From Chitinophagaceae bacterium (GTDB lineage Bacteria; Bacteroidota; Bacteroidia; Chitinophagales; Chitinophagaceae): a stretch of DNA of 64,000 bases. Below the pieces are notes generated by a model. The model did not search any database. It was given only the letters and a program-made list of their open reading frames with translations, and had not been told where the DNA came from. Both the position numbers and the translations under genes were made by a program. The stretch spans positions 1-64,000 of the forward strand of contig JAIEMP010000012.1 in NCBI GenBank assembly GCA_019752045.1. The letters run 5' to 3'. Shown one piece after another: positions 47,686 through 57,008 of this stretch (positions are counted from its first letter, which is position 1; each line of letters begins with the position of its first letter).

Positions 47686-49005
47686 ATGCAGATTGTTCAA
47701 CAGGTTTTATTTGCTATTTGTCTTGGTGCCGCCATTTGGTTCTTTAGTAAAAAGGTAAAAGAAATCAGACGAAATATTTTACTTGGTCTTGATGAAAATT
47801 TAACCGACAATCCCGGCCTGCGCTGGAAAAACATGCTGCTGCTTGCATTTGGCCAAAAGAAGATGTTTAAAAACCCGATGGTGGCCATTCTGCATTTAAT
47901 TGTGTATGCAGGTTTTGTAATTATTAATATTGAAGTACTTGAAATTGTACTGGATGGTGTATCGGGTACTCATCGTTTATTTCTACCGGTGCTGGGCGGT
48001 TTTTATACCTTCCTCATCAATTCATTTGAACTATTAGCACTGCTTGTATTAATTGCCTGTGTCATCTTTTTTGCAAGAAGGAATTTTATCAAACTCAAAC
48101 GTTTTATCAGTAAAGATCTTACAGGATGGCCGGCAACTGATGCCAACTACATCCTTATTACTGAAATTGTATTGATGAGTTTATTCCTGTTGATGAACGC
48201 TGCTGACCGTGCATTGCAATTAAACGGAGCCGCACATTATCATGAAACAGGAAACTTTGTGATCTCCGGTTTGCTTGCACCGGCATTAACCGGTTTGTCA
48301 ACTACAGCACTCATTGCAATTGAACGCAGCGCATGGTGGTTACATATACTCGGCATTCTTGCTTTCTTAAATTATCTACCATGGAGCAAGCATCTGCATA
48401 TTTTATTAGCCTTCCCGAATGCATGGTATGCGAGGTTGACCAATACAGGTGGAATGAGCAATATGACCTCTGTACAAAACGAAGTGAAGTATATGATGCA
48501 GCCGGAGCTGGCTCCTGCTGATGCAGCAGCTCCTTCAAAATTTGGTGCTAAAGATGTGATGGATCTGAGCTGGAAAAGTTTGCTGGATGCATACAGTTGT
48601 ACCGAATGTGGTAGATGTTCTTCTGCCTGCCCTGCAAATACAACAGGTAAATTATTAAGTCCGAGAAAGATCATGATGAGTACCCGTGACCGTTTAGAAG
48701 AAGTGGGGCGAAACATCAACCTTAATAAAGAATTTAAAGACGATGGTAAAGCATTGCTCAACGATTATATTACGGTTGAAGAACTTCGTGCATGTACAAC
48801 CTGTAATGCCTGTGTAGAAGAATGCCCTGTAAGCATCAACCCGCTTTCTATTATTTTAGAACTCCGCCGTTCTTTAATTATGGAAGACAGCAATGCACCC
48901 GGCGAATGGAACGCCATGTTCAGTAATATTGAAAATAATTTTGCACCGTGGAAGTTTAGTCCGGATGAACGGGATCAATGGGTGGAAGAAGTAAAAAGTT
49001 TGTAG
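47686..49005 (+). CDS. Membrane (4Fe-4S) protein, HdrC/GlpC-like electron carrier
   Basis: 439 residues. Five to six membrane helices (about 5-290) are followed by a cytoplasmic ferredoxin-like region with two 4Fe-4S sites, CTECGRCSSACP and CTTCNACVEECP. The arrangement (membrane anchor plus dicluster HdrC-like domain) is that of quinone- or heme-linked electron-transfer subunits. The CCG-domain protein that normally partners it is at 56232. Here they are split by the 7-kb minus-strand block. Redox partner is unknown. Confidence 0.88.
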   Translation: MQIVQQVLFAICLGAAIWFFSKKVKEIRRNILLGLDENLTDNPGLRWKNMLLLAFGQKKMFKNPMVAILHLIVYAGFVIINIEVLEIVLDGVSGTHRLFLPVLGGFYTFLINSFELLALLVLIACVIFFARRNFIKLKRFISKDLTGWPATDANYILITEIVLMSLFLLMNAADRALQLNGAAHYHETGNFVISGLLAPALTGLSTTALIAIERSAWWLHILGILAFLNYLPWSKHLHILLAFPNAWYARLTNTGGMSNMTSVQNEVKYMMQPELAPADAAAPSKFGAKDVMDLSWKSLLDAYSCTECGRCSSACPANTTGKLLSPRKIMMSTRDRLEEVGRNINLNKEFKDDGKALLNDYITVEELRACTTCNACVEECPVSINPLSIILELRRSLIMEDSNAPGEWNAMFSNIENNFAPWKFSPDERDQWVEEVKSL

Positions 49006-49073: not shown

Positions 49074-49769
49074 TCAATGAATATTTTTTTCCAACCCTCC
49101 TGTAATTTCTTCGGGATGTTCTAATTTATGGATGGCATCTTTGTGTTTAAAAATGCGGTAGAGTTGAAACAATGCGGTAATTAAAAATACGCCGCCAATA
49201 ATCCAGTTCAACATATTTTGGCTGGCATTTAAACGGTCAACCAATAACCTTCCGCCAAAAATAAAAACACAGTTGCCGGTAAATGTTCCAATACCAATTC
49301 CAATGATGTACAAATTATAATTCCATACACCCGGTTTTAATATTTGTTTGCTGAACAACACTGCACTCCATCCAAACCAGAAAGGAATCTGTACGGGATT
49401 GATGAGGCTCATGGTAAAACCAAGCAAGCCTCTGTGCATGGTATTGGAGAGCAGCACATTTTCTCCTTCGCCGGAGGGATGCGATGCTGCCCAGAAACTG
49501 GATGCTGCCAGGGCAAGTACAATGATCACCGTTATCCACTCCAGTGCTTTTAATAATTTTTCCTGTTTACGTACCCAATCCATTGCCACCAGTGATAAGC
49601 GTACATAAATAATTTCTGCCGTGAGCGAACCTGCAGAAAACCATAGTGCCGGCGATATGCCATCGGTAATACCGATTTGCATGGCCGCTATATTGAGCGT
49701 TCCCAATGGCAGTGAACCCAAAAAGCTGATAATAAAGCCCCACATTAAAATTTTAAGCACCGGCGGCAT
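49074..49769 (-). CDS. LysE/RhtB-family transporter
   Basis: 231 residues with six membrane helices. LGSLPLGTLNIAAMQIGITDG near the N terminus and SLINPVQIPFWFGWSAVL in the middle match the LysE family of amino acid exporters. Substrate is not evident. It is the last gene of the minus-strand block and ends 68 bp from the convergent Fe-S gene. It is separated from the ATP-grasp gene by 36 bp. Confidence 0.88.
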   Translation of the reverse strand: MPPVLKILMWGFIISFLGSLPLGTLNIAAMQIGITDGISPALWFSAGSLTAEIIYVRLSLVAMDWVRKQEKLLKALEWITVIIVLALAASSFWAASHPSGEGENVLLSNTMHRGLLGFTMSLINPVQIPFWFGWSAVLFSKQILKPGVWNYNLYIIGIGIGTFTGNCVFIFGGRLLVDRLNASQNMLNWIIGGVFLITALFQLYRIFKHKDAIHKLEHPEEITGGLEKNIH

Positions 49770-49805: not shown

Positions 49806-50876
49806 TTATAATTTTTCAGCAATGGCATCCAGCTTTTTTACAAGGGCAGTATTACTGCGAAACATTTTTTGTCCTTCTTTTAAACTCATGTACGGATGCC
49901 CCTTTGTATGATTTTGTTTGCTGATGCGGTACAGAATAAACCAATGCCGTATAATTTCTTTCCAGGCAAAAAAAAGTGAGTGCCCGGGATCATACATATG
50001 AGTTGGATCACTGCCGGCTCCATTGAGTTCAATTATGTGAAAGTTGATGCCGTTGTGTAAATCGTTCCAGTCATTATACATAATATCTAAACGTCCGTAA
50101 TAAAAACCGGGGATCTGTTTGCACACTGCATCCATGTTGTTGATGAACTGTTCATCGGCTTTATCTGTCCAGTCTAAAAACTTTGAACCTCTTGCATGAT
50201 TACCATAAGGAGCAAGAATCATCTCCTCTCCTTTTGCAAGCACCCGTTGCAAACCTGCTCCATGTATTTGCTGCAGAGCATTCATCTGTAAAATATAACG
50301 TGGCACTTCGCAAATGAGCAGGTACAAAGTTGAGATGCCATCGCCTGTTACTTTCATGGGTTCTTTTGCAACAATACCTGTAACTGTGCCATTGGTTTCA
50401 TTTGGCAAACGATGATAAAACACACCTACTTCGTGCTGATAAGGTGATAACTGCTGTACCAAAAAATCAACGGAACAAATTGCAGCGTAATGCTCCAGCT
50501 CTTCATCATCATGAATTTTTTTTACAGCTTTCCCTTGCATACCAATGGCAGGTTTTGCAATCAGCGGATAAGAAAACTGATATTGATTTTTCTGCTGTTG
50601 AATTATTTCAAACGATGTTCCTGCCTTTACAAAAAAGAAAGCCGGATAATACTGTTGCGGAATGAGCGGATAAATATCCTGTTTCATCTCCATCAAAAAC
50701 CCGCCATTGGCAATGGTTGGATTCGATGCAGAAAAAAAATATTTACCTCCTGCCCTGACGCACAATACAGCAAAAACAGGATAGATTATTCCGTAGATGG
50801 CATCAAAGTTCCAGTACTCCCAGTTTAACAGCCGAATAAAAAATGGATGATGAGAAAAGAGTTTACGCAGATTCAT
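49806..50876 (-). CDS. ATP-grasp-like protein, paralogue 1
   Basis: 356 residues from MNLRKLFSHHPF (50876). An N-terminal segment with NWEYWNFDAIYGIIYPVFAVLCVRA contains a hydrophobic stretch. The rest has ATP-grasp features: YPLIAKPAIGMQGKAVKKI, DFLVQQLSPYQHEVGVFYHR, and a metal-binding region FYYGRLDI... IIELNGAGSDPTHMYD. Sequences of this type are often annotated as D-alanine-D-alanine ligase-like, but the substrate is unknown. It is homologous to the protein at 55016-56056 (shared SNPTIA-GGF, TGTV-G, KVTGDG, GNHARGS/GNHNRGA and HFYYGRYDI-type blocks). Its start overlaps the end of the NRDE gene by 14 bp. Confidence 0.75.
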   Translation of the reverse strand: MNLRKLFSHHPFFIRLLNWEYWNFDAIYGIIYPVFAVLCVRAGGKYFFSASNPTIANGGFLMEMKQDIYPLIPQQYYPAFFFVKAGTSFEIIQQQKNQYQFSYPLIAKPAIGMQGKAVKKIHDDEELEHYAAICSVDFLVQQLSPYQHEVGVFYHRLPNETNGTVTGIVAKEPMKVTGDGISTLYLLICEVPRYILQMNALQQIHGAGLQRVLAKGEEMILAPYGNHARGSKFLDWTDKADEQFINNMDAVCKQIPGFYYGRLDIMYNDWNDLHNGINFHIIELNGAGSDPTHMYDPGHSLFFAWKEIIRHWFILYRISKQNHTKGHPYMSLKEGQKMFRSNTALVKKLDAIAEKL

Positions 50877-51603
50877 GTACAACAGATACAGGCATTGTAT
50901 GATTGGCCTCCTGTACAACTGTTTCGTTCGAAAGCAGATCTACATAAAGCAGTTTGGAAATATTATTTTTTTGCTCCAGCGAAGTGATGCTGACGGTTAA
51001 ATATTCATTCTCCCTGTTCATCATCACATCATTTGCCGAATCACCATCGCCTGCAAAGCGGTGAAAGTTAAGAATATTATCTGTATGTAAAACCGTGTGA
51101 TTTGTGACAAACTGTTGAAACCAGTGTTGCCTTTTTTTAATGATGTCATCTGCATACAATGTTGCAGAAGACCAGATGGCTGGTTGTTGAAGATCCAGTT
51201 CAGCAATTGTTTTTTCATGACCATCCCACTTTACATCTGCCAGCAAATGTTTTTCACGAATGATGAGCGTAAAAGGCTCTATCCCCTGTAAATGAATTTG
51301 CTCAAATGCAGCAATTGGATTTGGATGATCAAAAATATCAAGGAAAATCAATCCACGGCTTTTGCGGTAAGGCGGATTATATATATGATTGGTTGATGCA
51401 CCGTTGAGCAGCACCATGGCGTTTCCGTTTTCATGCAAGGCCATCCATGTACCACCTGCATTTCCATCTTTCGGAAATAAAATTTTACCCGAAGCATACT
51501 GAAACCATTGAGGGTATGTGGCACGAAGCCGAACCTGCTTTTCATCTCTGTTAGAGGTAAAAAAAAATCCGTTGTCAGTGGGTATGTATGTTACTGTGCA
51601 CAT
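50863..51603 (-). CDS. NRDE (TANGO2-like) family protein
   Basis: 246 residues. The start MCTVTYIPTDNGFFFTSNRDE carries the NRDE signature with Cys2, typical of the N-terminal nucleophile-like TANGO2 family; GGTWMALHENGNAMVLLNG is also characteristic. TANGO2 relatives are linked to haem and lipid handling in eukaryotes; the role in bacteria is unclear. It sits in a chain of overlapping genes: it overlaps the DinB gene upstream by 29 bp and the ATP-grasp gene downstream by 14 bp, so the three are probably translated together. Confidence 0.88.
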   Translation of the reverse strand: MCTVTYIPTDNGFFFTSNRDEKQVRLRATYPQWFQYASGKILFPKDGNAGGTWMALHENGNAMVLLNGASTNHIYNPPYRKSRGLIFLDIFDHPNPIAAFEQIHLQGIEPFTLIIREKHLLADVKWDGHEKTIAELDLQQPAIWSSATLYADDIIKKRQHWFQQFVTNHTVLHTDNILNFHRFAGDGDSANDVMMNRENEYLTVSITSLEQKNNISKLLYVDLLSNETVVQEANHTMPVSVVHESA

Positions 51604-52090
51604 GTTTTTTATACTGGATAGTGGATGATGCTACGCCAAAGTTTTCTGAAACCTCAGCTATAGAAAATTCTTTTAACCCAACTTTCATCAGGGCCATGTG
51701 ATGTACCGAATGTTCAAGATTATACATCAGCTCACGATAATAGTTGGTGGGCAGATCTATTTGAACGGATGCCTCATCGCCAAAATAGGAAATTAGCAAC
51801 AGATCTTTATTCTCAAGATCTATCGAATCGGTTAACTGCTGCAATAAGTTGCGTGCAAATTCTTTACTGGTTTCAATGGCAATGTCTCTTTTACGTTGAT
51901 CGTAACAAACGACTCCTGCTTGGTATCCGGATAACAAACATTGATACATCTCAACGACATGACGCATGTGTTGACCAATTGTAGCTCCCGATAAGTTCGC
52001 AGATACGGTGGTATACTCCTCATCGTTCAGTTGATCCAACACATTTGTAAGCTGTACAAATGATTCTTTAATTGCTTTTTTTAATTCCAT
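51575..52090 (-). CDS. DinB-like four-helix-bundle protein
   Basis: 171 residues. Four helices with metal-ligand histidines in GQHMRHVVEMY (His near residues 40-43) and HSVHHMALMKV (near 130), the DinB/YfiT pattern of thiol-dependent or metal-dependent enzymes. It is the first gene of the three-gene overlapping unit with NRDE and ATP-grasp. Substrate is unknown. The start at 52090 (MELKKAIKES) is 19 bp after the end of the YceI gene. Confidence 0.8.
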   Translation of the reverse strand: MELKKAIKESFVQLTNVLDQLNDEEYTTVSANLSGATIGQHMRHVVEMYQCLLSGYQAGVVCYDQRKRDIAIETSKEFARNLLQQLTDSIDLENKDLLLISYFGDEASVQIDLPTNYYRELMYNLEHSVHHMALMKVGLKEFSIAEVSENFGVASSTIQYKKHVHSNIHTH

Positions 52091-52109: not shown

Positions 52110-52655
52110 TTAATTTTTTTTGGTTAAAACATCCAGTTTTACTTTCAGATCGTTCGAAACGGTGTTTTTTCCACCAATACCAAAATCTCTGCGCTTTATT
52201 TTAAACTCTCCTTTAAAGCGGAAAGCTCCTGCTTCAGGTGTAATGGTAAAGGGAATAACAACATTCTGCGTTTTATCTTTAATTGTAAGTGCAGCAAACA
52301 ATACAAAATAGCCCGGTGTTACAGATTTAGCCACTTTTACAGAAACAAGTTTAATAAAAGGATATTTATTTACAAAAAAATAATCTTCGCCCCGTAGATG
52401 TTTATCTCTCAGCGAATTTTCTGTATTTACAGTTGAAGACTGAACAGTTACCTGAAAGGAAGAGGCTGAAAGATTTTTTTCATCAAATACAATCTGCCCC
52501 TGCAATCCTTTAAATAAACCTTCGACATCAAAACCCAGATTGGTAATTTCAAATATAACGGATGATCCCTTATCTACCGGGGTATATGTTTGTGAAAAGC
52601 TTATTGCAGATTGAAAGAGAACACAAACAGTAATTACTAATTTGATAATGGTCAT
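52110..52655 (-). CDS. YceI-family exported lipid-binding protein
   Basis: 181 residues with a signal peptide (MTIIKLVITVCVLFQSAISF). The lipocalin-like barrel shows SSVIFEITNLGFDVEGLFKG near the N terminus, HLRGEDYFFVNKYPFI (the D-x-F-x-x-x-x-P-x-I signature) and FKIKRRDFGIG near the C terminus. YceI proteins bind polyisoprenoids or related lipids in the periplasm, and are often linked to oxidative and acid stress. It ends the Crp-YHS-YHS-DoxX-YceI run. Confidence 0.9.
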   Translation of the reverse strand: MTIIKLVITVCVLFQSAISFSQTYTPVDKGSSVIFEITNLGFDVEGLFKGLQGQIVFDEKNLSASSFQVTVQSSTVNTENSLRDKHLRGEDYFFVNKYPFIKLVSVKVAKSVTPGYFVLFAALTIKDKTQNVVIPFTITPEAGAFRFKGEFKIKRRDFGIGGKNTVSNDLKVKLDVLTKKN

Positions 52656-52895
52656 TTAGTTTAGTTGAAAGGTTTTGCCAACTAAAAAAGCTGACATTTT
52701 ATTTCCTGATCGGCCGCTGGCCTCCGGAGTTTGCTGAATAATGAAAATGCATGTATAACCGGTAACTAAATTCCGCAACTCTGCTTTTATTTCAACTGTA
52801 AACCATCCTGCATACTGCTTTATTTTACGTTGAGTGTACAGCAGGCTCATAAAAGAAATTACGAAATTCAGTAACAGAAAGATGTTTGCCCTCAT
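52656..52895 (-). CDS. Small protein of unknown function, coupled to DoxX
   Basis: 79 residues. Its ATG overlaps the DoxX stop as ATGA (52892-52895), and its own stop abuts the YceI start (52655). A hydrophobic N terminus (MRANIFLLLNFVISFMSLLY) is a possible signal or membrane anchor, followed by YAGWFTVEIKAE, VTGYTCIFIIQQ and KMSAFLVGKTFQL, alternating like beta strands. I do not recognise it. The tight packing favours a real gene; its short length and lack of a known family argue for caution. Confidence 0.5.
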   Translation of the reverse strand: MRANIFLLLNFVISFMSLLYTQRKIKQYAGWFTVEIKAELRNLVTGYTCIFIIQQTPEASGRSGNKMSAFLVGKTFQLN

Positions 52896-53305
52896 TGCTT
52901 TTGTGTGATCGTTTTTAAAAGAACTTTACGGATCTGATCCTGGTATACATATAACAAAACAGCACTACAGATCAATACAATTACTGCATACAAAAACAGC
53001 AGCCCGCCGTCACCTTTTATTTCTATACCCAGTGTGGTTAAATGAAAAAAGATGGCTCCACTCATTAATCCTATACCAAGCAACGCACCAAATGCTGTTG
53101 TACGTGGCCATAGCAACAGGATGGATGCAATTAATTCAAACACACCGGTTCCAATACGGCCCCATGGCTCCATACCCAGTGTACTGAAAATATAAACGGA
53201 TTCTTCACTGCCGCTAAACTTAAAAAACAGAGTCTGCAACATAATAACGGCAGCTGCCAGACGCAGCACCCAGAATAATACATGAAGTGGTTTAATAATT
53301 GACAT
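52892..53305 (-). CDS. DoxX-family membrane protein
   Basis: 137 residues from MSIIKPLHVLFWVLR (53305); the frame is open to 53356, but that part overlaps the preceding YHS gene end. Four membrane helices with the DoxX pattern (LFFKFSGSE, GVFELIASILLLWPRT, GALLGIGLMSGAIFFHLTTLG). Family members are linked to redox and sulfur stress, with functions mostly unproven. It lies 27 bp downstream of the second YHS gene and overlaps the 79-aa gene by 4 bp. Confidence 0.85.
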   Translation of the reverse strand: MSIIKPLHVLFWVLRLAAAVIMLQTLFFKFSGSEESVYIFSTLGMEPWGRIGTGVFELIASILLLWPRTTAFGALLGIGLMSGAIFFHLTTLGIEIKGDGGLLFLYAVIVLICSAVLLYVYQDQIRKVLLKTITQKQ

Positions 53306-53331
53306 ATTGCTGATAATTGAAAATTGATTGG

Positions 53332-53769
53332 TTATGATTTTTTTACAACAGGCCATTTACTATTTGCTGAATCAATATATGCTGCTCTGTTTTTTTCCCA
53401 TATTTCTTTCACCTTCAGATTATAATTAAAATATAATTTATCATTCAGGATAGTCCATGTATCAGCCTGTGCAGGTGCTTTATACCCACGTGAAGTGCCA
53501 TAGGCACAATAGCCGCCATAAGCAGGTTCATATTTTTCTGGCGAACGTTTAAAACTGTCGAGATGCTGTTGAGATGAAAAGAGCCAGGTGGATTCTTTCC
53601 ATACAGTTGAATATGCTTCAATACCTTTAACGGGTTTGGTATCTGTGAAAAATGAAACCACATCGTATCCGCCGATAGCAATCCCTGAAGGAGAAAAAAT
53701 TTCAGGCTTTTGTGCAATGCTGATAATAGTCATCAGCAATAATCCCATCGTTAATGTAAACTTCTTCAT
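53332..53769 (-). CDS. Exported YHS-domain protein, copy 2
   Basis: 145 residues with a signal peptide (MKKFTLTMGLLLMTIISIAQ). The YHS-like domain follows: AIGGYDVVSFFTDTKPVKG, WLFSSQQHLDSFKRSPEKYEPAYGGYCAYGTSRG. The single Cys in the YGG-CAY motif and nearby acidic residues are candidates for metal or haem binding; function is unknown. It is 5 bp from the paralogue at 53775, with which it shares the GYDVV and P-KYEP-YGG-CAY blocks. Confidence 0.85.
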   Translation of the reverse strand: MKKFTLTMGLLLMTIISIAQKPEIFSPSGIAIGGYDVVSFFTDTKPVKGIEAYSTVWKESTWLFSSQQHLDSFKRSPEKYEPAYGGYCAYGTSRGYKAPAQADTWTILNDKLYFNYNLKVKEIWEKNRAAYIDSANSKWPVVKKS

Positions 53770-53774
53770 ATTTT

Positions 53775-54245
53775 TTATTTATGTATTTTGAGCCAATTAA
53801 CATCGGCCTTGGTTTTTAAAACAGCTTCCTCTTTGTTCCATGTTTTTAAAGTATTGTTGAATAACTTATTATAAAACAGGTAAAGTTTTCCGTTAACAAT
53901 TTTAAATGTTTCAGGATCTATGTCAACCTTTTCTCCTGTTGCACCCATAGCATAGGCACACCACCCACCATATTGCGGTTCATATTTTGCCGGTGCTTTT
54001 TTAAATTCATCTTTATTAGCTGCATTGGCAAACCTGTATTTAATTCCCTGATGAATAACAGTGTATTCACTGCTGCCTTTAATGGCTTTGTTTGAAGTAA
54101 AATAAGCTACCACATCATAGCCTTGTACAGCAATTCCATTGGAGAGATTAAAACCTGTGAGTCTTTTTTGATCTTGTGCATATACACTAGAGAAACTGCA
54201 AATTGCAAGGATGCATGTTGCAAGCATAACAATACTTTTTTTCAT
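53775..54245 (-). CDS. Exported YHS-domain protein, copy 1
   Basis: 156 residues with a signal peptide (MKKSIVMLATCILAICSFSSVYAQ). Conserved blocks are IAVQGYDVVAYFTSNKAIKGSSEY, YRFANAANKDEFKKAPAKYEPQYGGWCAYAMGATG. First gene of the run after the Crp/Fnr gene; a perfect -7 box (TAGTTTTG, 54270-54263) lies 18 bp before its ATG without a clear -33 element, as expected for an activator-dependent promoter. The neighbouring regulator is the obvious candidate (inference). Confidence 0.85.
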   Translation of the reverse strand: MKKSIVMLATCILAICSFSSVYAQDQKRLTGFNLSNGIAVQGYDVVAYFTSNKAIKGSSEYTVIHQGIKYRFANAANKDEFKKAPAKYEPQYGGWCAYAMGATGEKVDIDPETFKIVNGKLYLFYNKLFNNTLKTWNKEEAVLKTKADVNWLKIHK

Positions 54246-54262
54246 TGATTGTAATTATAAAA

Positions 54263-54270
54263 CAAAACTA
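54263..54270 (-). promoter_or_regulatory. -7 box before the YHS operon, no clear -33 box
   Basis: TAGTTTTG on the minus strand matches TAnnTTTG. Upstream within 17-23 bases no TTG is found; the region contains AAGCTT in GGGGGAAAGCTTC. The promoter may need an activator such as the Crp/Fnr protein coded next door. Confidence 0.4.
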
Positions 54271-54297
54271 AAGACGGGGGGAAAGCTTCTTTGTCAT

Positions 54298-55002
54298 CTA
54301 TCCGACAGCAAGGCTCTTTTGCAGAGATTTAACAGAAGGGATTTTTATAAACTGTCTTGTTACAGATACATAACCTGCATGTTCTAATTCATTCAGCATG
54401 GTTGTAACAGTTTGGCGGCTGCTGCCAATGAGCTGCGCAATATCTTCGTGAGTAAGAAAATTTTGAATTGTGTATTGATCTGCGTCAGCGCTCTCCCCTT
54501 CTTCTTTTGCCAGCATCATTAAAAAATGAATAAGACGTGTCTTGATGTCTTTATGTAAAAGATTCAACAAACGGTTTTCAAACTTGCGTAGTTTTTGCCC
54601 CACCTGTTTACTGAAATGAAATGCGATCTCAGGTTTTTTTCTTAAAAGTTTTTCAAAATCTTCAATGTTAAACGCACAGAGTGAAACATCACTTTTGTAA
54701 GCTTGTGCAAACTCGCCGTTTAAATTGTTGGGCTCAAGTGAAAACTGACCAAACACTTCTCCTTCACGTATGATTTCTTTTACCACTTCTTTTCCATCAT
54801 CATCAACAAAGCCGATTTTAATGGTGCCTCCTTTGAGAAAGTAAAGCTTATTATGAAAAGCAGAATCAAAATAAACGTACTGCCCTTTTTCTGCCTCAAT
54901 AAAATGATGCACCAGATTCAACTCTTCATACTCTTCATCAGTGATGTGTGAGAAGAGGTCGTAATTTCGTATCAGCAGAAATTTATTATCAGAGTTCATC
55001 AT
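54298..55002 (-). CDS. Crp/Fnr-family transcription regulator
   Basis: 234 residues. A cyclic nucleotide-binding-like barrel (GQYVYFDSAFHNKLYFLKGGTIKIGFVDDDGKEVV, REGEVFGQFSLEP) is joined by a long helix to a winged HTH_Crp domain (FLTHEDIAQLIGSSRQTVTTMLNELEHAGYV). No Fnr-type Cys cluster is seen at the N terminus, so it senses a small molecule or another signal rather than using an iron-sulfur cluster. It is directly upstream of the YHS genes on the same strand and is a likely regulator of them. Confidence 0.9.
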   Translation of the reverse strand: MMNSDNKFLLIRNYDLFSHITDEEYEELNLVHHFIEAEKGQYVYFDSAFHNKLYFLKGGTIKIGFVDDDGKEVVKEIIREGEVFGQFSLEPNNLNGEFAQAYKSDVSLCAFNIEDFEKLLRKKPEIAFHFSKQVGQKLRKFENRLLNLLHKDIKTRLIHFLMMLAKEEGESADADQYTIQNFLTHEDIAQLIGSSRQTVTTMLNELEHAGYVSVTRQFIKIPSVKSLQKSLAVG

Positions 55003-55015
55003 TTATTTGTTGAAA

Positions 55016-56056
55016 TTAGTCATATTCCTGCAGCAATTTAAAATGCTTCTGTGATTGTTTCAAAAAACGATACCCTTTCTGAAAACTCCAGTATGGATAA
55101 CCGTTGTTGTTGTTATACCTGCTTATTTCATACAACACCTTCCAGTGCTTCAGGATTTCCCGATAGGCATCTATCAACTTCATATGACAATCATAAATAT
55201 GGTTTGGTTCTGCTCCGCACCCGTTATATTCCAGTATCATAAAGTTTTTTCCTGCTTTCAGATCTTCAATGCTGGTAGTTTTAATATCGTACCGGCCATA
55301 ATAAAAATGTTTTGAGTATAGACTCAATTCATCAAACACTTGCTGCAACTGTTTATCAATTTCTGTATGTAAATTGGTAAAATGAGCTCCCCGGTTATGA
55401 TTACCTGCATAGGACAAATAAAAAATATGATCTTTCTCTATCATTCTGTTAAATCGGTGCCCATGGCGCCCCTTCATTTCTTCCATGCGATGTTTTGCAC
55501 GGGGGTGCTGTTCAATTAATTGTTCCAGAGTCAGCTTCCCATCTCCTGTTACGTGCAATAATTCTTTATAAATAAATCCGCTCACGGTTCCTGTTTGTTG
55601 TGTTGGATGGCGGTAATAAAACACACTTACTTCAACAGGCAGTTCTATTAAATCCTGCACAATGTATTCAACAGGTATCCGCTCATGGTATTTACGGAGC
55701 TGTTCTTCTGTATCAATTTTTCTGAACAAGATACCTTTCATACCAACATCAGGTTTTACAATAAATGGGTATTGAAAACCCGCCTGTTCAATTTGCATTT
55801 TTACTTCATCAAAAGAAAGGGTATGCAGAATGTAAATGGTACGGGGAACCGTATGAGGTGGCAACTGATCATACATTTCTTTTTTTCCTTCTCCTTCAAA
55901 ACCACCAAATGCAATGGTGGGGTTTGATGGAGTAAAAAACCACACAGCCCTGCTTTTGATCATATACCAAACCCATACAAAGCTGATGGGAAAGTAAATG
56001 AGGGCAAAGGGCCATAACTCCCAATTGGTAATTCGTTCAATTCTTTTTTTCAACAT
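55016..56056 (-). CDS. ATP-grasp-like protein, paralogue 2
   Basis: 346 residues from MLKKRIERITNWELW (56056). Hydrophobic segment LIYFPISFVWVWYMI near the N terminus, then ATP-grasp blocks: YPFIVKPDVGMKGILFRKI, EYIVQDLIELPVEVSVFYYR, KHFYYGRYDI and MILEYNGCGAEPNHIYD. Homologous to the 49806-50876 protein; the order of motifs and spacing agree over the whole length. The two genes sit near opposite ends of the minus-strand block, with seven genes between them. Substrate unknown; a D-Ala-D-Ala-ligase-like or carboxylate-amine ligase reaction is possible. Confidence 0.75.
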   Translation of the reverse strand: MLKKRIERITNWELWPFALIYFPISFVWVWYMIKSRAVWFFTPSNPTIAFGGFEGEGKKEMYDQLPPHTVPRTIYILHTLSFDEVKMQIEQAGFQYPFIVKPDVGMKGILFRKIDTEEQLRKYHERIPVEYIVQDLIELPVEVSVFYYRHPTQQTGTVSGFIYKELLHVTGDGKLTLEQLIEQHPRAKHRMEEMKGRHGHRFNRMIEKDHIFYLSYAGNHNRGAHFTNLHTEIDKQLQQVFDELSLYSKHFYYGRYDIKTTSIEDLKAGKNFMILEYNGCGAEPNHIYDCHMKLIDAYREILKHWKVLYEISRYNNNNGYPYWSFQKGYRFLKQSQKHFKLLQEYD

Positions 56057-56186
56057 GAGCCTCAAAGATAACAGGCTGCAGGAATATTTGAACAATGGGC
56101 GGCTTGGTTGTTTTTTACACAGTGAAAAAAAATTCTTAACCGAATAATTTCAAATACTGGAATGGTTAGTGAAAATTTTATAGCAG

Positions 56187-56214
56187 TTGTTTCATTGCTT
56201 TTGCCCTAGTTTTG
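56187..56214 (+). promoter_or_regulatory. Promoter for the CCG Fe-S protein gene
   Basis: TTG (56187-56189), 17-base spacer, TAGTTTTG (56207-56214). The expected transcript start is near 56221, which rules out the in-frame upstream Met at 56187 and supports the start at 56232. Confidence 0.65.
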
Positions 56215-56231
56215 AAAAAAAAATCTTTTGC

Positions 56232-57008
56232 ATGCATGTACCATCCATGGCTGAGATGACTGCCAATAATGAAACTCCTGAAGTATTATTCTGGGTTGGC
56301 TGTGCCGGCAGCTTTGATCAACGGGCGCAAAAAATTACAAAAGCTTTTGCTGCCATACTTCAAAAGGTAGGGATCAGGTTTGCTATATTGGGTAAAGAAG
56401 AAATGTGTACCGGAGATCCTGCACGCAGAGCAGGAAATGAATTTCTTTTTCAGATGATGGCCTATAATAATATACAGGTGCTCAACGGGTATGGCATCAA
56501 AAAAATTGTTACAGCCTGCCCTCACTGTTTTAATACATTAAAAAATGAATACCCCGCTTTAGGTGGCAGTTATGAAGTGATTCATCATACGACACTTTTA
56601 CAACAACTGATTGATGAAGGAAAGTTGAAATTAAAAGAAGGTGGTTCGTTTAAAGGAAAGAAAATTACTTACCACGACAGTTGTTATCTGGGAAGAACAA
56701 ACAATATTTATGAAGCCCCACGTAAAGTACTTGAAGCGCTGGATGCTGAACTGGTTGAAATGAAACGTTGCCGCAGCAATGGCCTGTGCTGTGGTGCAGG
56801 TGGTGCTCAAATGTTTAAAGAAGAAGAGAAAGGTGAAAGCAGAGTAAACAGAGAACGAACTTTTGAAGCAATTGAAACAGGAGCCGGTATTATTGCAGCT
56901 GCCTGTCCGTTTTGTAATACCATGATGACGGATGGTGTAAAGGTTGCTGAAAAAGAAGAACAGGTACAGGTGTTAGATATTGCCGAACTGATTGCAGCCA
57001 GCATATAA
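56232..57008 (+). CDS. CCG-domain Fe-S protein (HdrB/GlcF-like)
   Basis: 258 residues from MHVPSMAEMT (56232), fixed by the promoter at 56187-56214; Met at 56247 is an alternative. Two cysteine-rich CCG-type domains are visible: VTACPHCFNTLKNEYP with HDSCYLGRTNNIYEAPR, and NGLCCGAGGAQMF with AACPFCNTMMTDG. Such domains hold a non-cubane 4Fe-4S cluster and move electrons in heterodisulfide reductase and related systems. The membrane Fe-S protein at 47686 is the likely partner. Followed at 36 bp by a small membrane protein gene. Confidence 0.88.
   Translation: MHVPSMAEMTANNETPEVLFWVGCAGSFDQRAQKITKAFAAILQKVGIRFAILGKEEMCTGDPARRAGNEFLFQMMAYNNIQVLNGYGIKKIVTACPHCFNTLKNEYPALGGSYEVIHHTTLLQQLIDEGKLKLKEGGSFKGKKITYHDSCYLGRTNNIYEAPRKVLEALDAELVEMKRCRSNGLCCGAGGAQMFKEEEKGESRVNRERTFEAIETGAGIIAAACPFCNTMMTDGVKVAEKEEQVQVLDIAELIAASI

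Follow-up and report, generated by a model that had tools for sequence, protein, structure and literature searches.

What do the six adjacent genes on one strand between positions 52110 and 55002 of a Chitinophagaceae contig do, and does their transcription unit end where it seems to end? The DNA analysed, referred to here as the window, is a stretch of 64,000 nucleotides (contig JAIEMP010000012.1 of assembly GCA_019752045.1, positions 1 to 64,000). Its relatives place it in Lacibacter, a genus of the Chitinophagaceae, and the same genes were found in the loci L033 and L095, the latter from Lacibacter cauensis. An original prediction, made from the letters of the window, had described a six-gene unit (Crp/Fnr, two YHS proteins, DoxX, a small protein and YceI) and proposed a Crp-controlled periplasmic system handling a metal, thiol or quinone stress. 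In this study, we report that the six genes most likely make up the promoter-proximal end of an extended operon, YHS1-YHS2-DoxX-(c8 remnant)-YceI-DinB-TANGO2-ATP-grasp-LysE, which the adjacent Crp/Fnr-family protein most likely activates via the sequence TGTC-N8-GACA. The gene set is conserved across Bacteroidota, and its likely role is that of an inducible pathway, with partners in the envelope, which makes or trims a small molecule or lipid carrying an amide linkage. The anatomy of operon and regulon described below is, in our judgement, very probably correct.

Organisation of the locus

Inspection of the open reading frames (ORFs) bore out that six genes lie on the minus strand across 52110-55002, and that both an ATGA overlap (52892-52895) and a zero gap (52656/52655) are present on either side of the small ORF. 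The genes and order given for the six-gene unit stood. Its end at 52110 did not, and neither did the gene of 79 amino acids (aa) as an intact member. Beyond YceI the row continues with DinB, TANGO2, ATP-grasp and LysE genes and reaches position 49074, with gaps or overlaps of less than 60 base pairs (bp) each. A single transcript probably covers the set from YHS1 to LysE. The genes are as follows.

54298 to 55002, minus strand: Crp/Fnr-family regulator of 234 aa, assigned by family scans and alignment
53775 to 54245, minus strand: YHS1, secreted-type protein with the motif YGGWCAY (NF041384)
53332 to 53769, minus strand: YHS2, with the motif YGGYCAY (NF041384), optional in relatives
52892 to 53305, minus strand: DoxX-family membrane protein; the ORF is open from 53356, and the ATG at 53305 is the more likely start
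52656 to 52895, minus strand: 79-aa ORF, a deletion remnant of c8, matching both ends of that gene
52110 to 52655, minus strand: YceI-family protein by family match, optional in relatives
51575 to 52090, minus strand: DinB-superfamily-like protein, scoring below Pfam cut-offs and carrying invariant His residues
50863 to 51603, minus strand: TANGO2/NRDE protein with invariant Cys2 and R19-D20-E21 and a cysteine N-terminal nucleophile (Cys-Ntn) fold
49806 to 50876, minus strand: ATPg2, an ATP-grasp protein whose nearest relative is the ATP-grasp part of cyanophycin synthetase
49074 to 49769, minus strand: LysE-type translocator (PF01810, 1e-12)

Conservation of the gene set

When named genomes were scanned with the ATP-grasp alignment, at least 558 stretches encoding a relative were found, and the best 80 were analysed; they include loci from Niastella, Flavihumibacter, Ferruginibacter, Flavipsychrobacter, Flavobacterium and Dyadobacter. 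Sixty-one of the 80 had at least 6.5 kb before and at least 1.2 kb after ATPg2. In these full-flank loci, all chosen for ATPg2, TANGO2 was present in 60, DinB in 59, DoxX in 50, LysE in 40, YHS1 in 39, Crp in 35, YceI in 30, DM13 in 16 and c8 in 10. TANGO2 stands immediately before ATPg2 in 77 of the 78 loci that have both.

Association of the two ends of the operon was examined in 195 genomes of the family. The NF041384 YHS protein occurs in 57, ATPg2 (above 425 bits) in 64 and both in 52, and in 42 of these 52 the two genes lie within 8 kb. Co-occurrence is significant by genome (Fisher p about 1e-29) and by genus (8e-21), neither value being corrected for descent; 36 of the 37 genera with YHS also have ATPg2. 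The coupling is incomplete, which speaks against it: ATPg2 is missing from 5 of the 57 YHS genomes, YHS is missing from 12 of the 64 ATPg2 genomes, and some YHS genes stand alone, outside the operon.

Among open-licence papers in PubMed Central (PMC), none was found that joins three or more of YHS domain, DinB, TANGO2, DM13, ATP-grasp and DoxX, or that joins NRDE with ATP-grasp, although the set may still be described elsewhere. Smaller combinations in the same literature (for example YHS domain, DoxX and YceI, or YceI, Flavobacterium, DoxX and RNA-seq) returned no title on this gene set.

Promoter region and predicted control by the Crp/Fnr-family regulator

Two elements lie between the regulator gene and YHS1.

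54292 to 54307, minus strand: operator-like dyad TGTCGGATAGATGACA (TGTC-N8-GACA), overlapping the crp stop codon and recognised by comparison of upstream regions
54263 to 54270, minus strand: -7 box TAGTTTTG of the Bacteroidota TAnnTTTG pattern, without a -33 box

For the comparison, upstream regions that did not differ in their final 60 bases entered the count a single time. YHS proteins were excluded if they lacked GGWCA, had no Met at the distance expected or had less than 100 bp of upstream sequence. This left 101 regions, 90 of them in operon context, with L038 and L094 each counting twice. A crp gene was scored as nearby when a profile match below 1e-30 lay within 7 kb on either strand.

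That a -7 box without a -33 box precedes the first YHS gene, as originally predicted, was confirmed, and there is no TTG at the -33 place. The pattern TAnnTTTG, which we take to be the Bacteroidota -7 consensus, occurs within 100 bp before YHS1 in 36 of 91 upstream regions, while single-base shuffles gave a mean of 4.0 and a maximum of 10. The dyad lies upstream of this box, at a spacing of 21 bp in the window. It was not revealed by a plain inverted-repeat search near the promoter and emerged only when the 91 upstream regions were compared. Dyad and box were found together in 29 of the 101 regions, 21 bp apart in 28 of them and 22 bp apart in one. The exact dyad precedes YHS1 in 38 of 53 upstream regions with crp nearby as opposed to 3 of 37 without (Fisher p 1.3e-9). 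It is also kept before YHS1 in five loci in which crp sits beyond LysE (L066, L071, L147, L148 and L149), so it is not merely the conserved end of the crp gene. These loci belong to Flavipsychrobacter and some other genomes, and DoxX lies beyond LysE in them as well.

The dyad is centred some 40 bp ahead of the inferred start. This is the class II position, at which an operator near -41.5 stands instead of the -33/-35 element, and an activator bound there would explain why the -33 box is missing. With the likely regulated promoter situated between crp and YHS1, crp may be transcribed separately from the other genes. The arrangement resembles class II Crp/Fnr promoters in the location of the dyad, the missing -33 element and the adjacent regulator gene, and differs from them in combining the dyad with a Bacteroidota -7 box. 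The half-sites TGTC and GACA presumably differ from the classical Crp or Fnr half-sites. The interval suggested earlier for Crp binding, 54263-54297, takes in the -7 box together with the first part of the dyad.

Where crp is not nearby, a second promoter type appears. An extracytoplasmic function (ECF)-like pattern, TG(T/A)AAGG-N13-19-CG(T/C), was present in 16 of 37 regions without crp nearby and in 0 of 53 with crp (p 6e-8), and an ECF sigma gene was found within 7 kb in 7 of the 16; sigma and anti-sigma families were confirmed at L047.

The regulator scores over both domain cut-offs (cNMP_binding, 38.3 against 27.5 bits; HTH_Crp_2, 57.2 against 27 bits). It fails the cAMP-CRP equivalog NF008732 (73.9 against 266 bits) and stays below the Fnr model cut-off (43.3 against 228 bits). 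It has no FNR-type N-terminal Cys cluster. Its sole Cys, Cys109, is conserved in 57 of 58 aligned Crp rows, among which some genomes are counted twice. Cys109 might serve in redox sensing, or it may merely be a common residue at that place.

Several counts weigh against control by this regulator. The exact dyad is missing from 15 of the 53 regions with crp nearby (6 of these 15 carry it at one mismatch), neither the dyad nor the ECF-like pattern was found in 33 of 90 upstream regions, and about one exact dyad (1.02) is expected by chance in the window alone. The ECF-like pattern was moreover derived from, and counted on, the same sequences without a shuffle control. A scan for sigma-70 promoters and terminators was uninformative, with 26 promoter-like sites against 23.2 in shuffles and 4 terminator-like sites against 5.8. 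On balance, the originally proposed Crp control is supported by comparative evidence, namely a dyad with class II spacing that tracks crp and recurs before related genes elsewhere, and binding is predicted.

The c8 remnant and the candidate regulon

The 79-aa ORF had been taken for a small protein. In a close Lacibacter relative (L288), an intact gene for a protein of 243 aa, here called c8, stands between DoxX and YceI, and the ORF matches it over its first 34 aa (56% identity) and its last 46 aa (57%). Because both ends of c8 match at the same place, the ORF is a copy of c8 whose middle has been deleted. This two-end match, together with the lack of any Pfam family in the domain scan, rules out a genuine small protein. 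From one weak match below cut-off and from the appearance of its sequence, c8 looks like a secreted outer-membrane protein. An intact c8 lies beside a DM13 gene on another contig of the window's genome (L283).

Four operator-like sites (at most one mismatch, 21-bp spacing) were found in the window's genome. The first precedes the YHS1 operon; the second, the c8-DM13 pair on contig C5; and the third, with one mismatch, a DM13 gene on contig C16. The fourth, on contig C3, lies within an open frame of 476 codons and has no gene start close downstream. Genes for c8 and DM13 sit inside the operon in other species. Most likely, to judge by these sites, the same regulator controls the two further loci, which encode c8 and DM13 lipoproteins. 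Across 8 Lacibacter genomes, those of 14 that have any exact site, 29 sites with no more than one mismatch were found, and 15 of the 29 stand immediately before genes for YHS1 (8), c8 (4) or DM13 (3).

Two results count against this regulon: 6 of the 14 Lacibacter genomes have no exact site, and the dyad-plus-box pattern was found less often than its reversed control (29 against 43 at one mismatch, 25 against 33 exact). Raw genome counts were dropped as stand-alone evidence, since a control that equals or exceeds the real pattern means that the numbers alone prove nothing; the case rests on the position of the sites and on the genes behind them. In one Lacibacter genome, an exact operator-plus-box (L267, G160:C1:4424908-4424952) lies just upstream of a secreted gene that we take to be peroxiredoxin-like, possibly by chance.

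The ATP-grasp enzyme and its fusions

ATPg2 is placed in the ATP-grasp superfamily by its modelled fold and its kept Lys, Asp, Glu and Asn. The model has a predicted local distance difference test (pLDDT) value of 93.0, and its best structural match is cyanophycin synthetase (Z 17.4, root mean square deviation 4.1, 274 residues), followed by glutathione synthetase, LysX/ArgX, RimK and D-Ala-D-Ala ligases. K108, D264, E283 and N285 are invariant in alignments; we assume that these are the ATP-site Lys and the metal ligands. The ATP-grasp domain of cyanophycin synthetase (CphA) is also among the best sequence matches. ATPg2 nevertheless falls far below the family cut-off (TIGR02068, 27.5 against 850 bits) and differs from CphA in its length of 356 aa, a conserved N-terminal WEYW segment, the lack of a second ligase domain and its other partners.

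The enzyme is joined to its neighbours in a single chain in several loci: to TANGO2 in L037, L039, L055 and L088 (with Pfam support for L039), and to LysE in L213 (with Pfam support). In other classes of the phylum, 30 genomes hold an ATP-grasp match above 270 bits in an open frame longer than 800 aa. Nine such loci were examined, and in each a VTT (DedA) domain comes before the ATP-grasp; an alpha/beta hydrolase scores over cut-off in 6 of the 9, and a DinB profile match adjoins in 7. The VTT fusions with adjoining DinB indicate that the pair kept across classes is DinB and ATP-grasp, and that the hydrolase and membrane-mover parts are exchangeable.

A second branch of the family, ATPg1, scores about 290-420 bits against the ATPg2 profile and also occurs without the TANGO2 operon. 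The LysE-fused ATP-grasp of L213 is of this ATPg1 branch.

The TANGO2 protein

The protein encoded before ATPg2 belongs to PF05742 (46.8 bits against a gathering cut-off of 22.6). Its model has a pLDDT of 92.8, and its best solved match is human TANGO2 (8sv7, Z 23.4). Next come CV2077 (Z 21.9), acyl-CoA:isopenicillin N acyltransferase (Z 19.4) and N-acylethanolamine amidase (18.6), then ceramidase (acid ceramidase) and bile salt hydrolase (17.7). With their lower Z than TANGO2, bile salt hydrolase and penicillin acylase are less likely identities. Compared with the PDB by sequence, the profile reached human TANGO2 only at E 0.12, whereas the fold comparison was clear; the sequence alignment to human TANGO2 covers profile residues 12-67, within which the NRDE motif and the counterpart of Asn75 are aligned.

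The N-terminal Cys and the NRDE Asp of cysteine Ntn hydrolases are present, and Cys2, R19, D20, E21 and N67 are invariant in 25 rows and again in 49 rows, the latter set being drawn from MCT-holding proteins (77 of 78, the other being cut at 106 aa). In human TANGO2, Cys2, Asn25, Arg26, Asp27, Asn75, Asn157 and Lys166 have been compared with known Cys-Ntn active sites (PMC13044924). The window protein shares Pfam family, modelled fold, NRDE motif and Cys2 with human TANGO2 and bacterial HtpA. It differs in lying in an ATP-grasp operon, in being fused in 4 loci and in having about 16% identity to human TANGO2.

The YHS, DoxX, YceI, DinB and LysE proteins

Both YHS proteins match NF041384 at about twice its cut-off (141.5 and 138.6 bits against 70) and stay below the gathering cut-off of Pfam YHS PF04945 (24.7 and 25.0 against 30.3 bits). 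The signal peptides and the single Cys attributed to them were borne out: each has a signal-like start, judged by eye, and its mature part contains one Cys, located in the motif YGG(W/Y)CAY. The Cys of the YGG-CA motif is present in 23 of 23 aligned YHS rows. A table in a 2026 review lists an NF041384 YHS member as a selenoprotein with the motif GxU; the window proteins differ in carrying Cys in the YGG-CA motif and in being paired in one operon under one promoter. Comparison of YHS1 with the PDB by sequence gave only chance-level matches (best E 0.13).

YceI matches PF04264 well (110.8 against 23.7 bits, 1e-31), and DoxX is weak but over both cut-offs (PF07681, 28.1 against 23.6; DoxX_2 PF13564, 28.6 against 26.3 bits). 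LysE scores 48.4 against 25.6 bits (PF01810). The DinB assignment has the Pfam cut-offs against it (PF12867, 21.5 against 24.8; PF05163, 21.0 against 23 bits); H41, H44, H127, H130 and H131 are invariant in 29 rows, other classes included. The family label of DM13 is that of an electron-transfer domain.

Proposed function and alternative explanations

In the proposed mechanism, the Crp/Fnr-family protein would bind TGTC-N8-GACA some 40 bp ahead of the start site and there replace the -33 box. The cytoplasmic ATP-grasp enzyme would then form an amide bond, and TANGO2, as a cysteine Ntn enzyme, would cleave or transfer an acyl or aminoacyl group on the same compound, on which DinB may act through a bound metal. 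LysE would carry the compound over the inner membrane, and DoxX, YHS, DM13, YceI and c8 would handle it in the envelope, where these proteins might use or sense it. We consider the joint statement, a Crp-switched longer operon with amide-forming or amide-trimming chemistry, evenly poised between right and wrong; the amide chemistry taken by itself is offered tentatively, with doubt outweighing belief. A broader generalisation is doubtful as it stands: that these loci represent a new Bacteroidota envelope pathway, in which ATP-grasp would build an amide, LysE or VTT/DedA would move it and TANGO2 or an alpha/beta hydrolase would cut it, under interchangeable Crp or ECF switches. The composition is unusual for an inducible Crp- or ECF-switched envelope operon.

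TANGO2 deficiency is described as a severe human disease whose biochemistry is disputed between a heme carrier, an acyl-CoA binder and an Ntn hydrolase. If the proposed pathway is correct, TANGO2 would be an amidase or acyltransferase working with a ligase, which would bear directly on the disputed human role. With TANGO2 placed beside, or fused to, an ATP-grasp of the type that forms amides, and with a predicted operator in front, the conserved operon opens TANGO2 to bacterial genetics and to tests with a class of substrates. The work also supplies a predicted operator for one Crp/Fnr branch in Bacteroidota and brings the YHS, DM13, DoxX and YceI families together in one candidate regulon.

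A variant in which an amino acid or peptide would be attached to a membrane lipid or lipid amine, and the product flipped and made removable again, is unlikely, although it fits several observations. ATP-grasp would here be the synthase, VTT/DedA or LysE the mover and TANGO2 or the alpha/beta hydrolase the remover, by analogy with the aminoacyl-lipid systems of the MprF type. The likeness to these is one of function only, a synthase with a membrane mover and a hydrolase, and the synthase of MprF is tRNA-dependent where that of the window is an ATP-grasp. The VTT fusion in 9 of 9 loci of other classes, the alpha/beta hydrolase in 6 of 9 and the LysE fusion in another genome suit such a scheme, as does the TANGO2 fold, which lies close to those of N-acylethanolamine amidase, acid ceramidase and bile salt hydrolase. 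The association of YceI and DoxX with lipids or quinones points the same way. However, the ATP-grasp enzymes of nearest structure use peptides and amino acids as substrates, and LysE proteins are usually amino acid exporters.

The original proposal of a self-contained periplasmic system (Crp-YHS-YHS-DoxX-YceI) against metal, thiol or quinone stress, with the downstream enzymes as unrelated neighbours, now appears quite unlikely. Envelope redox or metal work is suggested by the secreted-type YHS, DM13 and YceI proteins together with DoxX, the listing of an NF041384 member as a selenoprotein fits a redox Cys, and the site before the peroxiredoxin-like gene, possibly a chance one, would agree. 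Yet among the 61 ATPg2-selected loci, DinB (59) and TANGO2 (60) recur more regularly than YHS1 (39) or YceI (30), and gaps of less than 60 bp run through the whole gene set of the window. The description as periplasmic was half right: DinB, TANGO2, ATP-grasp and LysE belong to the same set and, as judged by eye, have no secretion-signal-like start. No metal, thiol or quinone stress is identified by any of the results.

Heme trafficking, with the TANGO2 protein acting like Shewanella HtpA and the operon moving heme for haemoproteins, is very unlikely. Bacterial TANGO2 homologs have been reported to bind heme and to aid cytochrome c synthesis, from which heme trafficking was argued (PMC10470608), and the DM13 label of an electron-transfer domain would suit this role. 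In the same report, however, HtpA was replaced by six homologs, of which five failed and one partly complemented. The heme role has been challenged (PMC12782551, eLife 2026), in a paper whose main text nowhere mentions operon, gene cluster or ATP-grasp, and the crystal structure paper describes no specific heme site in human TANGO2 and argues for a Cys-Ntn hydrolase (PMC13044924). No heme-synthesis or cytochrome-maturation gene is among the identified operon genes and repeated partners, many flanking genes being unidentified and heme families not having been searched for. The fusion of TANGO2 to ATP-grasp points to catalysis, which again counts against heme trafficking.

Chance or lineage-wide synteny without functional coupling is extremely improbable: gene order is shared by descent among related genomes and the statistics ignore phylogeny, but the association persists by genus (36 of 37), there are three kinds of ATP-grasp fusion partner and two promoter types before the same genes, and the operator is common to unlinked loci.

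Neighbouring genes and related loci

One further member of the ATP-grasp family lies next to the operon.

55016 to 56095, minus strand: ATPg1, second ATP-grasp of the family of ATPg2, upstream of crp

This position of ATPg1 upstream of crp was seen in Lacibacter loci and a few others. The operon is flanked by two iron-sulfur (Fe-S) protein genes on the plus strand, one for a 4Fe-4S protein (47686-49005) and one for a TfrB/HdrB-like protein (56187-57008), both below family cut-offs. Double-YHS proteins (L075:6891-7838, L078, L080, L082 and L086) were found in a separate recurring neighbourhood, apart from the operon, beside genes that we take to be GlcG-like and sugar-lactonase-like. At the place of the operon, relatives present a graded series: L220 has LysE-ATPg1 only, L224 has TANGO2-ATPg2 in addition, and others have the full set.

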